Made by a program: the position numbers and the translations under genes. 40,220 nucleotides of DNA from the NCBI GenBank assembly GCA_903837555.1, contig CAILUV010000095.1:1-40220 (forward strand), given 5' to 3'. This DNA comes from an uncultured Alphaproteobacteria bacterium. Its GTDB lineage: Bacteria; Pseudomonadota; Alphaproteobacteria; Micropepsales; Micropepsaceae. The notes beneath the pieces are model-generated. The model was not told the origin of the DNA, searched no databases, and was given only the letters and a program-made list of their open reading frames with translations. The stretch's first letter is position 1; each line of letters starts with the position of its first letter. Below are positions 36,636 through 40,220 of the stretch, in pieces.

Positions 36636-37397
36636 ATGACCCCGACGCTCTCCTCCCGGCTGCAGACGCTGGTGCGCATCGCGCAGGCGGCGGGCGTGGT
36701 GGTCATGCGCCATTACGCGGCGGGGGCGCAGGCGCGGGTCAAAGCCGACTGCTCGCCCGTGACCGACGCCGACGAGGAAGCCGAAAGGCTGATCCTGGCC
36801 GAGCTAGCGGCCGCCTTCCCCGGCGTGCCTCTGGTGGCCGAAGAAGAAGCCGCCGCAGGCCGTATCGCCGGCGTGGCTGCCCATTTCTTCCTGGTCGATC
36901 CAGTGGACGGCACCAAGGAATTCATCAAGCGCACCGGCGAATTCACCGTGAACATCGGCGAAGTGCAGGACGGCGTTCCGGTCGCCGGCGTGGTGTTCGC
37001 GCCCGCCATCGAGCGGCTGTTTGTCGGCGCCCTCGGCGAAGGCGCGTTTGAACTGTCCGGCGGCGTTCTCAAATCCATCGCCGCGCGCAAGCCGCCTGAT
37101 GACGGCCTGATCGCGGTCAGCAGCAAGTCGCATCCCGATGCACAGACCGATGCGCTGCTGGGAAGCATGAATATCAAGGGCCGCATCAATGCCGGCTCAT
37201 CGCTGAAATTCTGCCTGGTGGCGGCGGGCGAAGCCGACATCTATCCACGTGCCGGACGCACCATGGAATGGGATACGGCCGCCGGCGACGCGGTGCTGCG
37301 CGCGGCAGGCGGCGATGTCAGCAACTGGGACTATACGCCCTTCACCTATGGCAAGCCCGAATTTGAAAATGGGCCGTTCATCGCACGCGGGCGTTGA
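36636..37397 (+). CDS. cysQ: 3'(2'),5'-bisphosphate nucleotidase CysQ
   Basis: This inositol-monophosphatase-family enzyme of 253 residues removes the 3' phosphate from PAP/PAPS, a by-product of sulfate assimilation. Metal-site motifs are EEE (residues 69-71 in VAEEEAA), D88-P-V-D91-G-T93 (VDPVDGTKEFIKRTGEFTVN) and the late EWDTAAGDAVLRAAGG. The KEFIKR segment distinguishes CysQ from SuhB-type enzymes. The ribosome binding site lies within a CtrA-box-like sequence. It is divergent from chpT and convergent with the small two-helix membrane gene. Confidence 0.92.
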   Translation: MTPTLSSRLQTLVRIAQAAGVVVMRHYAAGAQARVKADCSPVTDADEEAERLILAELAAAFPGVPLVAEEEAAAGRIAGVAAHFFLVDPVDGTKEFIKRTGEFTVNIGEVQDGVPVAGVVFAPAIERLFVGALGEGAFELSGGVLKSIAARKPPDDGLIAVSSKSHPDAQTDALLGSMNIKGRINAGSSLKFCLVAAGEADIYPRAGRTMEWDTAAGDAVLRAAGGDVSNWDYTPFTYGKPEFENGPFIARGR

Positions 37398-37419
37398 TTG
37401 CCCGTATCCGTGCGCGCCG

Positions 37420-37662
37420 CTACCGATCCATGTCGTGGCGTGAGGAATAGAAAACCAGCGCCATCAGTCCGCCGCCCAGCGCGATGGTGACCACCACGCC
37501 CAGGATCATGAACGTCCAGCCCCAGCCGCTCATGTGCACGCCAGACATCGCGGTCCAGACCTTCGCGGCATACCAAAAGGATGCACCGAACAGGCCAAGC
37601 AGGACCACCAGCGTCAGCCAGCCGGCGGCAGAGAGCTTGTTGCGCGGTTCGTTGTCCATCAT
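37420..37662 (-). CDS. Small two-helix membrane protein, unknown
   Basis: This 80-residue protein has two transmembrane helices (about 13-36 and 47-71; WLTLVVLLGLFGASFWYAA and FMILGVVVTIALGGGLMALV), short charged ends and no known domain. AAGG with suitable spacing precedes the first of two adjacent ATG codons. Both ends probably face the cytoplasm. It is divergent from eipA across 134 bases, so it could share a regulatory region with that envelope gene. Confidence 0.7.
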   Translation of the reverse strand: MMDNEPRNKLSAAGWLTLVVLLGLFGASFWYAAKVWTAMSGVHMSGWGWTFMILGVVVTIALGGGLMALVFYSSRHDMDR

Positions 37663-37796
37663 CTCGCCTTGTTCGTTACCCTCATTCTTTCAAGCCGTTA
37701 ATGCAACGGGCTGTAAAAATGCCCCAATCTGGGCAAAGCTTGCGCGCGGTTGGGCAAGTGATTCGGCGCAAGGCTTTGGCCGCGCAAGGAGCGAAC

Positions 37797-38420
37797 ATGA
37801 ACCGCAAGAAATTCATCTCGGGACTTCTGGCCGTGGGCGCAACGCCCGCCGCGGTGGGCAGCCTTCTGAGCATCGGCGCCGCGCGTGCCGCGGACCAGAC
37901 CGCTTCCGCGCCGCTGGCCAGGGAACGCGCGTCCAGCAGCACCTACACCGCCGATGAAATCACCCAGGCCGGCGCCGACTTCTTCGGCATCACCTCCGAA
38001 GCCATGGCCAAGGGCGTGCAGCATGTGTTCGGCGACCTGGGGCAGCCCGACGGCTACATCAAGGGCGATGAAGGCGGCGGCGCGGTGGTGGTGGGCTTCC
38101 GCTACGGCTCGGGCTGGCTGATCCGCAAGGGCGCTGATCCCAAGCAGGTTTACTGGCGCGGCCCGTCGGTCGGCTTCGACCTTGGCGCCAATCTCTCCAA
38201 GTGCTTCACGCTGATCTACAACCTGCGTGAGGAACGCCGCCTGTTCCAGCGATTCCCCAGCGTGGAAGGCAGCATCTATTTCGTGGCGGGTCTGGGCATC
38301 AACTACCAGCGCAGCGGCGGCGTCACCCTGGCGCCGATGCGCACCGGCGTGGGCCTGCGCGCGGGCGTCAACGCCCAGTATCAGGTCTATACCGACCGCC
38401 GCGACTGGTTCCCGCTTTAA
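37797..38420 (+). CDS. eipA: EipA/DUF1134 envelope-integrity protein
   Basis: This 207-residue protein has a signal peptide (residues 1-31, with a KKFISGLLAVGATPAAVG core). The DUF1134 domain follows: EITQAGADFFGITSEAMAKG, GYIKGDEGGGAVVVGFRYG and GPSVGFDLGANLSKCFTLIY. It is the family of Brucella EipA, a periplasmic beta-barrel protein needed for cell-envelope integrity and division. AAGGAG precedes ATG 37797. It is followed after two bases by a 73-residue repeat protein, so the two genes are probably an operon. Confidence 0.92.
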   Translation: MNRKKFISGLLAVGATPAAVGSLLSIGAARAADQTASAPLARERASSSTYTADEITQAGADFFGITSEAMAKGVQHVFGDLGQPDGYIKGDEGGGAVVVGFRYGSGWLIRKGADPKQVYWRGPSVGFDLGANLSKCFTLIYNLREERRLFQRFPSVEGSIYFVAGLGINYQRSGGVTLAPMRTGVGLRAGVNAQYQVYTDRRDWFPL

Positions 38421-38422
38421 GC

Positions 38423-38644
38423 ATGCGCAAGCGCCCCGCCACATCCGTGGGCGCGGTGGCCGTCGGCACCTTCGCGCTGGGCAGCCTTGCCCTGGGCGCG
38501 ATTGCGATCGGCGCGGTGGCGGTTGGCGCGATGGCGATAGGGGCGCTGGCCATCAAGCGGTTGAAGATCAAAAGCGCCCGCATCCAGAGACTGGAAATCG
38601 ACGAGCTGGTGGTGCGCAAGATCACGCGCCCACCGGAAGCGTAA
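38423..38644 (+). CDS. 73-residue period-5 repeat protein, unknown
   Basis: Residues 8-67 divide without interruption into twelve five-residue units: SVGAV, AVGTF, ALGSL, ALGAI, AIGAV, AVGAM, AIGAL, AIKRL, KIKSA, RIQRL, EIDEL, VVRKI. Position 2 is always V, I or L; position 5 is nearly always hydrophobic; position 3 is Gly in the first seven units. The first part could cross or lie on a membrane; the later units are charged. A pentapeptide-like beta-solenoid or glycine-zipper assembly is conceivable. The ATG is two bases after the eipA stop, implying coupling. Confidence 0.75.
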   Translation: MRKRPATSVGAVAVGTFALGSLALGAIAIGAVAVGAMAIGALAIKRLKIKSARIQRLEIDELVVRKITRPPEA

Positions 38645-38648
38645 GCGG

Positions 38649-39611
38649 CTAGGCCACCGCTTCTTCGGTTTTGCTCGTATCGGTCTTGCCGCCCACTTCC
38701 GGCATGTACAGCAGCAGCATCGACGCGACATAGGTGGACGAGAAGGTGCCCACCACGATGCCGAACAGGATGGCGATGCTGAAATTCTGCAGCACATGGC
38801 CGCCGAACAGCAGCGGGATCACCGAGGTCGCGGTGGCGACCGACACCAAAGTGGTGCGGGTGGCGATCTGGTTGGTCGACAGGTTGATCATGTCAATCAA
38901 AGGCATGCGCTTGTACTTTCGCCGGTTCTCGCGGATGCGGTCGAACACCACCACGGTATCGTTGATCGAATAGCCCGCCAGCAGCAGCAGGGCCGCCACC
39001 GTGTTGATGTTAAAATCCAGTCCCATGATGGAATAGAATCCGGCCGTCACGAACACGTCATGGCCGGTGGCGATCAGCGCGCCAACGCCATACTGCCATT
39101 CAAAGCGCACCGCGACGTATATCGAGATCATCGCCACTGCCAGGATGGTGGCGATGATGCCGTCATCCAGCAGCTCGCCCGACACCTTCGGCCCCACCAC
39201 TTCGGTGCGGCGATATTCGTAGGACGGTCCCAGCTTGCCGCGCACCGCCTGCACCACTGCCTGGTCGGCCTTTTCCTGGTCGCCGCCCTGCGCCAGCGCC
39301 TTGGGCTGCACGCGGATCATCACGCAACTGTTGACGGGGCGTTCGCACTCGCCGCCGCCGAAATACTGCAGATGACTTTCGGGGAAACCCAGACTGTCCA
39401 CGTCGGCGCGCATCTTGCCGATGTCGATGGTTTGCCGGGACTTCACTTCCATCAGCACGCCGCCGGTGAAGTCGATGCCCAGGTTGAAACCGTACCAGAG
39501 GATCGACACCACCGCGATCACCAGCAGCAGCCCGTCCACGGCGAAGGCGGCGAAGCGGTATTTGACGAAATTGACGTTGGTCGTTTCGGGAATAAACCGC
39601 AGCAACGGCAT
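38649..39611 (-). CDS. secF: Protein translocase subunit SecF
   Basis: This 320-residue membrane protein has an N-terminal helix, periplasmic P1 domain, then five further helices, as in SecF. Motifs are GFNLGIDFTGGVLMEV, GPKVSGELLDDG, DVFVTAGFYSIMGLDFN, and GYSINDTVVVFDRIRENRRK. SecF with SecD uses the proton gradient to pull exported proteins through SecYEG. secD usually lies just upstream, but here a divergent cupin gene does. The P1 domain carries two cysteines, C89 and C96 (GGGECERPVNSC). Its stop is a few bases from the period-5 gene's stop. Confidence 0.94.
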   Translation of the reverse strand: MPLLRFIPETTNVNFVKYRFAAFAVDGLLLVIAVVSILWYGFNLGIDFTGGVLMEVKSRQTIDIGKMRADVDSLGFPESHLQYFGGGECERPVNSCVMIRVQPKALAQGGDQEKADQAVVQAVRGKLGPSYEYRRTEVVGPKVSGELLDDGIIATILAVAMISIYVAVRFEWQYGVGALIATGHDVFVTAGFYSIMGLDFNINTVAALLLLAGYSINDTVVVFDRIRENRRKYKRMPLIDMINLSTNQIATRTTLVSVATATSVIPLLFGGHVLQNFSIAILFGIVVGTFSSTYVASMLLLYMPEVGGKTDTSKTEEAVA

Positions 39612-39749
39612 GGGATGCTCAATGTGGCAGAATTCTGGCGGAACCTACGCGCGGCAACGCCAGCGAACAAGCGAGACAAAAGCGCCCAAGCCGACCTTGC
39701 GGGCGCCGCGGTTTGCGGGGAACCTTACAGTTCTGACAGGGAGATCCAC

Positions 39750-40202
39750 ATGTCACGCAAACTGCTTTTGATCCCGGCTTTTCTGGCCGCAACGGCCCCC
39801 GCCTTCGCCCAACCCAGTGTCGATCCCAAAAGTACCATGGCGCTGAAGCCCGACGAGATTCAATGGACCAAAGGCGAGCGCAACGACCAGGCCTGGGTGG
39901 TCGGCGATCCCAAGCAGAAAGGCCCTTGCCTGCAGCTTATCCGCTGGAAAGCGGGCAACTTCAGCCGGCCGCATTACCACGAAAGCCCGCGCTATGCGGT
40001 GGTGCTGTCGGGCACCTGGTGGCTGTCCACCAGCAATGTCTATGACCCGATGAACAACACCGTGGCCTTTCCGGCCGGATCGGTGCTCACCAACCTGGTG
40101 GGCGGCGTGCATTATGACGGCGCCAAGCACGAGACCGGCGACGCGGTGGTCGCCATCTGGATGGACTGTCCGCTGACCGGCGTGCCCGCCGAAAAGAAAT
40201 AA
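39750..40202 (+). CDS. Exported cupin-domain protein
   Basis: This 150-residue protein has a signal peptide (SRKLLLIPAFLAATAPAFA, cleaved near residue 20). One cupin domain follows: motif 1 around FSRPHYHESPRYAVVLSGTW and motif 2 around FPAGSVLTNLVGGVHYDGAK, with His residues able to bind a metal. A small periplasmic dioxygenase, isomerase or sugar binder is possible; no substrate can be given. GGGAGA precedes the ATG. It is divergent from secF across 138 bases. The last 18 bases of the window hold no gene. Confidence 0.82.
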   Translation: MSRKLLLIPAFLAATAPAFAQPSVDPKSTMALKPDEIQWTKGERNDQAWVVGDPKQKGPCLQLIRWKAGNFSRPHYHESPRYAVVLSGTWWLSTSNVYDPMNNTVAFPAGSVLTNLVGGVHYDGAKHETGDAVVAIWMDCPLTGVPAEKK

Positions 40203-40220
40203 TCAGCGCTTCGCCACGGC

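Follow-up and report, generated by a model that had tools for sequence, protein, structure and literature searches.

The short gene that lies directly behind eipA in the analyzed window (the whole stretch of 40,220 nucleotides) encodes a protein whose five-residue period is far beyond chance. By record titles, this protein belongs to an apparently unnamed family that is scattered across several phyla. The pentad gene is under purifying selection, and its coupling to eipA is real in this genome but local. We tentatively favor the explanation that the product is a small membrane protein of beta-type pentads, which would be a facultative passenger of eipA and would assemble with itself; we hold this explanation at somewhat less than an even chance. 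The features of the locus are listed in Table 1. They bear out the preliminary description of this DNA in identifying the upstream gene as eipA and in placing the pentad start codon two bases past its stop.

Table 1. Features of the eipA and pentad gene locus (positions in the window)
Feature	Position	Strand	Details
AAGGAG, Shine-Dalgarno-like	37786..37791	+	5 nt 5' of the eipA ATG; read from the sequence
eipA (DUF1134, envelope integrity protein A), 207 aa	37797..38420	+	PF06577, E 8.7e-63
Junction TAA-gc-ATG	38418..38425	+	eipA TAA at 38418-38420, pentad ATG two bases on
Pentad-repeat protein gene	38423..38644	+	ORF of 73 aa
Uncharged Gly/Ala/Val/Leu/Ile stretch, residues 6-44, probable membrane segment	38438..38554	+	39 residues without D, E, K, R, N, Q, H, P; KD19 maximum 2.38; AlphaFold2 helix 10-45
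Charged pentad zone, residues 45-67	38555..38623	+	mostly Leu/Ala-x-Ile/Val pairs every five residues; contains the anchor LEIDELVV, residues 57-64
Weak terminator-like hairpin	38643..38662	+	at the end of the pentad gene, overlaps the secF end
secF, convergent neighbor	38649..39611	-	TIGR00966, E 7.7e-81

Residues 8-67 can be split without interruption into twelve pentads (SVGAV, AVGTF, ALGSL, ALGAI, AIGAV, AVGAM, AIGAL, AIKRL, KIKSA, RIQRL, EIDEL and VVRKI), and the five columns across these units read SAAAAAAAKREV, VVLLIVIIIIIV, GGGGGGGKKQDR, ATSAAAARSREK and VFLIVMLLALLI. The preliminary description had proposed this division, with seven uncharged units followed by five charged ones, and both points hold; the switch falls inside unit eight (AIKRL). 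The lag-5 hydropathy autocorrelation of the protein was 0.54, a value matched by 0 of 5000 shuffles, and 25 lag-5 identities were observed compared with 6.2 expected. In the charged part alone (residues 45-73), the hydropathy period was kept (0.48, p 0.001) and the lag-5 identity was not significant (4 vs 1.8, p 0.11). At the DNA level, only imperfect 15-bp tandem repeats with 75-84% matches were present.

A scan of a genome contig collection returned at least 302 relatives, and 80 of them were kept as loci. The alignment consisted of the window protein and 69 of these loci; the other 11 were omitted because they were near-duplicates or had ends that were unclear or odd. The relatives were retrieved by two pentad-type patterns, which favors the period itself, not a register that array and tail share across many units. 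With the tail anchor as the reference point, 70 of 70 sequences share one dominant glycine phase, which holds 562 of 619 glycines; these counts come from related sequences and do not represent independent events. The period on which the preliminary description was built is therefore retained in the aligned relatives. Within residues 25-64 (window protein numbering), the other 69 sequences have no deletion, and all nine of their insertions are exactly five residues long; gaps of other lengths are present closer to the N-terminus. The anchor itself varies, and exact IDEL is found in 36 of the 70 members.

Three pentad zones were assigned by simple ad hoc rules. A polar N-terminal zone, present in some members only, has the form Gly-Ala-polar-Ala-Thr/Val. 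The five columns of the uncharged zone (403 pentads) are Gly (358), Ala (299), Leu/Val/Phe, Ala (345) and Ile/Val/Leu, and those of the charged tail zone (301 pentads) are x-Arg/Glu/Lys-Leu/Ala-x-Ile/Val. By these rules, at least eight contiguous units were present in 66 of the 70 sequences, with twelve in the window protein. In some relatives, column 3 of the N-terminal arrays holds polar residues, but in the tail this column is Leu/Ala, so no one common face runs through all three zones. Long polar arrays of the GAKATGAEAVG type lie ahead of the uncharged zone in four relatives (L057, L088, L109 and L060).

Because a stretch of 19-45 residues (median 31) without D, E, K, R, N, Q, H or P was found in 70 of 70 sequences, the pentad-repeat protein is probably membrane-directed, as the preliminary description had supposed. 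With at least 19 residues, the stretch is long enough to span a membrane in every member, and the KD19 maximum was at least 1.88 in all 70. Uncharged stretches rich in Ala and Leu are commonly transmembrane helices. The 20 residues that follow the stretch had a net charge of 0 to +5. A rough 21-mer insertion sum, with approximate scale values and no length correction, was near zero (median -0.0), so membrane insertion would be marginal.

AlphaFold2, run on the 70-row alignment, gave the window protein the helix listed in Table 1, with a pLDDT of 87 for residues 21-30 and 94 for residues 31-40. The tail was without DSSP structure at a block pLDDT of 81-86 from residue 41, and the mean pLDDT of the model was 79.0 with a pTM of 0.40. 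For the long relative L088, a helix was predicted at residues 57-95 (mean pLDDT 61.4, pTM 0.26). Neither strands nor a solenoid appeared in the models of these two proteins, both of low pTM, and a Foldseek search with the window protein model gave no PDB match at E ≤ 10. One long helix is the outcome that the preliminary description itself had named as contrary to its beta-solenoid proposal.

The periodicity of the sequence does not fit this helix. In the 20 residues past the uncharged stretch (70 of 70 sequences), the mean hydrophobic moment was 1.96-2.06 at 144-148 degrees (2.06 at 148) and 0.36 at 100 degrees. The side-chain volume moment over at most the last 25 residues of the uncharged stretch was 24.8 at 144 degrees compared with 7.7 (sd 4.1) for shuffled sequences, and 2.9 at 100 degrees compared with 7.8; a strict five-residue period forces such maxima to 72 or 144 degrees. 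Thus, at 144 degrees per residue large and small side chains fall on different sides, but at the helical 100 degrees they are spread evenly. The strong component is at 144 degrees, the one closer to an extended strand, and the pattern therefore argues against a helix, which would be without a packing face. We regard the moments as an argument for beta-type units and not as a structure. The ordinary long helix of AlphaFold2 and the beta-type units suggested by the sequence pattern contradict each other, and this conflict is the interesting point.

The preliminary description had also suggested a glycine zipper, which has a GxxxG-type spacing of four. This assembly was ruled out, as the 70 sequences contain 7 Gly pairs at lag 4 compared with 368 at lag 5, and the window protein contains 0 and 6, respectively. 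Inspection of the sequence showed Ala-xxx-Gly pairs in most uncharged units.

In the explanation that we favor, the gene would encode a small protein, probably of the inner membrane, whose family is widespread but patchy and found no clear model in the libraries searched, and the whole chain would be arranged in strict five-residue beta-type units. Each unit of the uncharged zone would have one small side (Gly/Ala) and one large side (Leu/Val/Ile), and the charged tail would keep to this register with Leu-x-Ile/Val pairs that are separated by charged residues. The uncharged zone would enter the membrane, the positively charged tail would stay on the cytoplasmic side, and the units of adjacent molecules, or successive units of one molecule, could stack to form protein patches. 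In the lineage of the window, the position directly behind eipA and coupled translation would lead to expression together with the envelope protein; in other genomes the gene would be a passenger behind other genes, and its product would not be an obligatory partner of EipA. This explanation draws on the register common to all 70 sequences, the insertions of five residues only, the long uncharged stretch with a net charge of 0 to +5 behind it, the moments at 144 degrees, the low dN/dS, the eipA junctions and the varied genomic contexts. Against it stand the low-pTM AlphaFold2 models, with a helix and no strand in both proteins, the lack of a PDB match by Foldseek, the marginal insertion sum, the polar column 3 of the N-terminal arrays and the usual helical character of uncharged Ala/Leu-rich stretches. 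Moreover, the five-residue indels could come from 15-bp slippage, and the retrieval patterns favored the period.

A plain single-span anchor is a serious possibility, which we consider only slightly less probable. The protein would then be one long alpha-helix followed by a short positive tail, unstructured or extended, and the period would have no structural meaning and be left over from 15-bp duplication. The helices predicted for the window protein and L088, the uncharged stretch of sufficient length in every member and the imperfect 15-bp repeats in the DNA are consistent with such an anchor. Against it stand the register fixed to the tail anchor in all 70 sequences and the Gly at column 1 in 358 of the 403 counted pentads; small and large residues would be spread evenly on the helix, and the tail keeps the same period without helical amphipathicity.

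We consider it unlikely that the five-residue units build a beta assembly within the membrane, with one Leu/Ile/Val face, one Ala/Gly face and a charged beta tail in the same register, and that this arrangement occurs in several phyla and was missed by AlphaFold2. The program may default to helix for pentad sequences of this kind. If true, this would be a membrane protein architecture without a match in the libraries searched. The extended, two-faced five-residue units predicted from the sequence contradict the structure predictor, and the conflict would reflect either a new membrane-associated architecture or a strict period within an ordinary helix.

The libraries searched contained no clear model for a family that turns up in many environmental genomes. 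For the window protein, no Pfam or NCBIfam model scored above its cut-off. Over the 70 aligned members, the best E was 0.0081 in Pfam and 0.027 in NCBIfam, the latter library matching mostly single members. In PHROGs, the best E was 0.00062 for a tail-fiber family (PHROG 7660), which matched 10 of the 70 members; the window protein reached only E 0.066 and 0.099. These weak matches likely reflect a resemblance of repetitive composition. Sequence searches against the PDB gave chance-level matches only (best E 0.5 and 1.6). Plasmids and phages gave no match, a result of little weight since the low-complexity filter may hide such a query. Viral contigs gave four loci. In one of them, the tail and array of L103, the Methylorubrum copy, are repeated; two others resemble L103, and the fourth is doubtful. 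Among the titles listed by a literature search of open-licence papers, none concerned the pentad-repeat family.

The pentapeptide repeat proteins (PF00805) are similar in their five-residue period, their runs of at least eight contiguous units and the hydrophobic pair spaced by two within each unit. The consensus given for them in one account is [ACSVTLI][DNSKEIR][LF][STREQKVD][GDENRQK] (PMC8145042). Unlike these proteins, the pentad family has Ile/Val in place of Leu/Phe at the center of 287 of 341 tail pentads, and the uncharged part takes up over half of the window protein. Where pentapeptide repeat proteins form a right-handed quadrilateral beta-helix, the two low-pTM AlphaFold2 models showed a helix, a tail without DSSP structure and no strands. 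A classic pentapeptide repeat was rejected: only 2 of the 341 tail pentads fit the consensus in the best phase, and the uncharged pentads of the window protein match 0-3 of the 5 positions in any phase. The statement in the preliminary description that the pattern differs from the classic motif was thus correct. The profile matches, of PF00805 to 1 of the 70 members (best E 0.035) and of PF01469 to 2 (best E 0.028), do not support membership either. The LapA domain (PF06305) shows a weak profile resemblance in 26 of the 70 members, covering residues 14-53 of the window protein; membership was ruled out, as the window protein scored 15 bits against a cut-off of 28, and the best member had an E of 0.0083. 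The polar N-terminal arrays of L057 and L088 look similar to YadA head repeats (PF05658) and phage tail-fiber families. YadA head membership was ruled out, with YadA_head in 1 of the 70 members at E 0.3.

Homologues exist far outside this genome. Of the 96 genomes of this bacterial family, 47 contained relatives in a protein search at E ≤ 0.001, the window's own genome among them, and the order-level search covered the same 96 genomes. The 70-row profile found 49 of the 96 at 0.001, two of them weak, and 47 at 1e-6. Among 200 genomes drawn evenly from the phylum, three were carriers, one of which was the window's own, so the profile is not merely catching Ala-rich proteins and the family is patchy. 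The record titles of the relatives, in which the taxon labels of metagenome-assembled genomes may be wrong, include alpha-, beta- and gammaproteobacteria, Acidobacteria, Actinobacteria, Chlorobium, Hymenobacter, assemblies labelled Cyanobium and Chloroflexi, and others. Strains by title are Terriglobus roseus (complete), Hymenobacter ginkgonis, Micromonospora parva and Peristeroidobacter soli. Copies in cultured relatives include those of Terriglobus roseus DSM 18391 and Methylorubrum rhodesianum DSM 5687. In genome G027, four profile matches lie on contigs C294, C218 and C153, two of them close together on one contig, which suggests longer or duplicated arrays. For six eipA-linked copies, dN was 0.04-0.37 and dS 0.36-1.30; in the 15 pairs dN/dS was 0.09-0.35, and the third codon position changed most in every pair.

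EipA is described as a periplasmic DUF1134 envelope protein with a novel fold, encoded near ctrA and chpT in Rhizobiales, and its molecular function is given there as undetermined (PMC10787603). It is a different protein from the pentad-repeat protein and has no repeat. In the window, eipA lies by cysQ and secF (36636-39611), unlike the ctrA/chpT neighborhood reported in that paper. The gene is present in 91 of the 96 genomes and adjoins the pentad gene in ten, all of the window's genus. The gap is two bases in G000, G083, G075 and G078, 9 bases in G018 and 15 in G072; the genes overlap in G081, G025 and G034, and G058 is uncertain. An in-frame ATG, GTG or TTG, located between an overlap with the stop and 15 nt past it, is therefore kept in nine of the ten. 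This closeness of the pentad start to the eipA stop suggests coupled translation. By inspection, no Shine-Dalgarno sequence comparable to the AAGGAG of eipA was seen ahead of the pentad ATG. The secF end lies four bases downstream of the pentad gene end. Two terminator-like hairpin sites were found in the scanned region compared with 0.8 (sd 0.8) in shuffles, no sigma-70-like promoter was found there, and Rfam gave no match in 37000-40220.

The preliminary description had linked the protein to EipA, and conservation beside DUF1134 genes was not supported. Only 10 of the 47 carriers have eipA adjoining, and 81 of the 91 eipA genomes are without a pentad gene alongside. EipA lies alongside in 4 of the 80 relative loci (tblastn with the window EipA at 1e-5, flanks of up to 4 kb, some shortened by contig ends), all four within the ten (G083, G018, G025 and G078), and not in the other 76. 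On large contigs of G017, G066, G067 and G068, the two genes are far apart on the same contig. A close relative with an 87% identical EipA (G074) is without the pentad gene, and a conserved partnership was ruled out by these results. At 18 unlinked eipA loci, taken from the 81 unlinked genomes and not a random draw, convergent secF was next in 18 of 18, with aligned ends 3-228 bases apart, so the pentad gene has been inserted into, or lost from, a stable neighborhood. In a 28-row tree of EipA, in which 10 rows were linked and 18 were not, the linkage requires a minimum of four changes compared with a shuffled mean of 8.4; it is thus clustered but without one simple origin. A soluble or surface-bound pentapeptide-type beta-solenoid that works with EipA in envelope integrity, which comes close to the preliminary reading, agrees with the period, the spaced hydrophobic pair, the twelve units and the immediate eipA linkage in ten genomes. 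We nevertheless judge it improbable, given the tail pentads, most of which fit neither the consensus nor its center residue, the lack of a good Pfam match or an AlphaFold2 solenoid, and a linkage that is not conserved. The linkage offers a small extra lead on the molecular function of EipA.

An 80-aa probable membrane protein without a Pfam match above cut-off is encoded on the opposite strand between cysQ and eipA (37420-37662). Its relatives are present in 8 of 8 eipA-linked loci and in 18 of 20 loci of a second eipA set, mostly directly 5' of eipA.

The neighbors of the pentad gene were surveyed over the 80 loci. With seven near-duplicates set aside, candidate frames were picked by distance and length, 61 of them upstream and 62 downstream. 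After omission of the eipA loci and of spurious-looking, mostly overlapping frames, 52 were scanned on each side; the ORF picks were greedy and some are surely spurious. GcpE (ispG) matched 7 of the 52 upstream frames and 1 of the 52 downstream frames. Each other family among the best 25 of 52 upstream and the best 25 of 48 downstream matched one or two frames, and a general functional neighborhood was rejected. A second neighborhood in the same bacterial family, with a convergent creatininase downstream, was found at 7 of 22 unlinked loci (L008, L016, L023, L025, L026, L029 and L030). Both downstream genes tested there are creatininases; two of three upstream frames tested contain GNAT domains, one of them also DUF3224, and the third had no match. 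Five frames from other neighborhoods (L005, L007, L013 and two from L021) had no Pfam match. A low-complexity ORF of little function, kept or spread by repeat expansion, would suit the repetitive sequence, the patchy distribution (3 of 200) and these varied contexts, but it is very improbable in view of the purifying selection and of a register, tail and zone layout common to record titles from several phyla.

In seven sphingomonad-type loci (L065, L066, L077, L080, L089, L095 and L107), the pentad gene lies 3' of a common gene of about 380-430 aa, which, judging by the number of GcpE matches upstream, is probably ispG.
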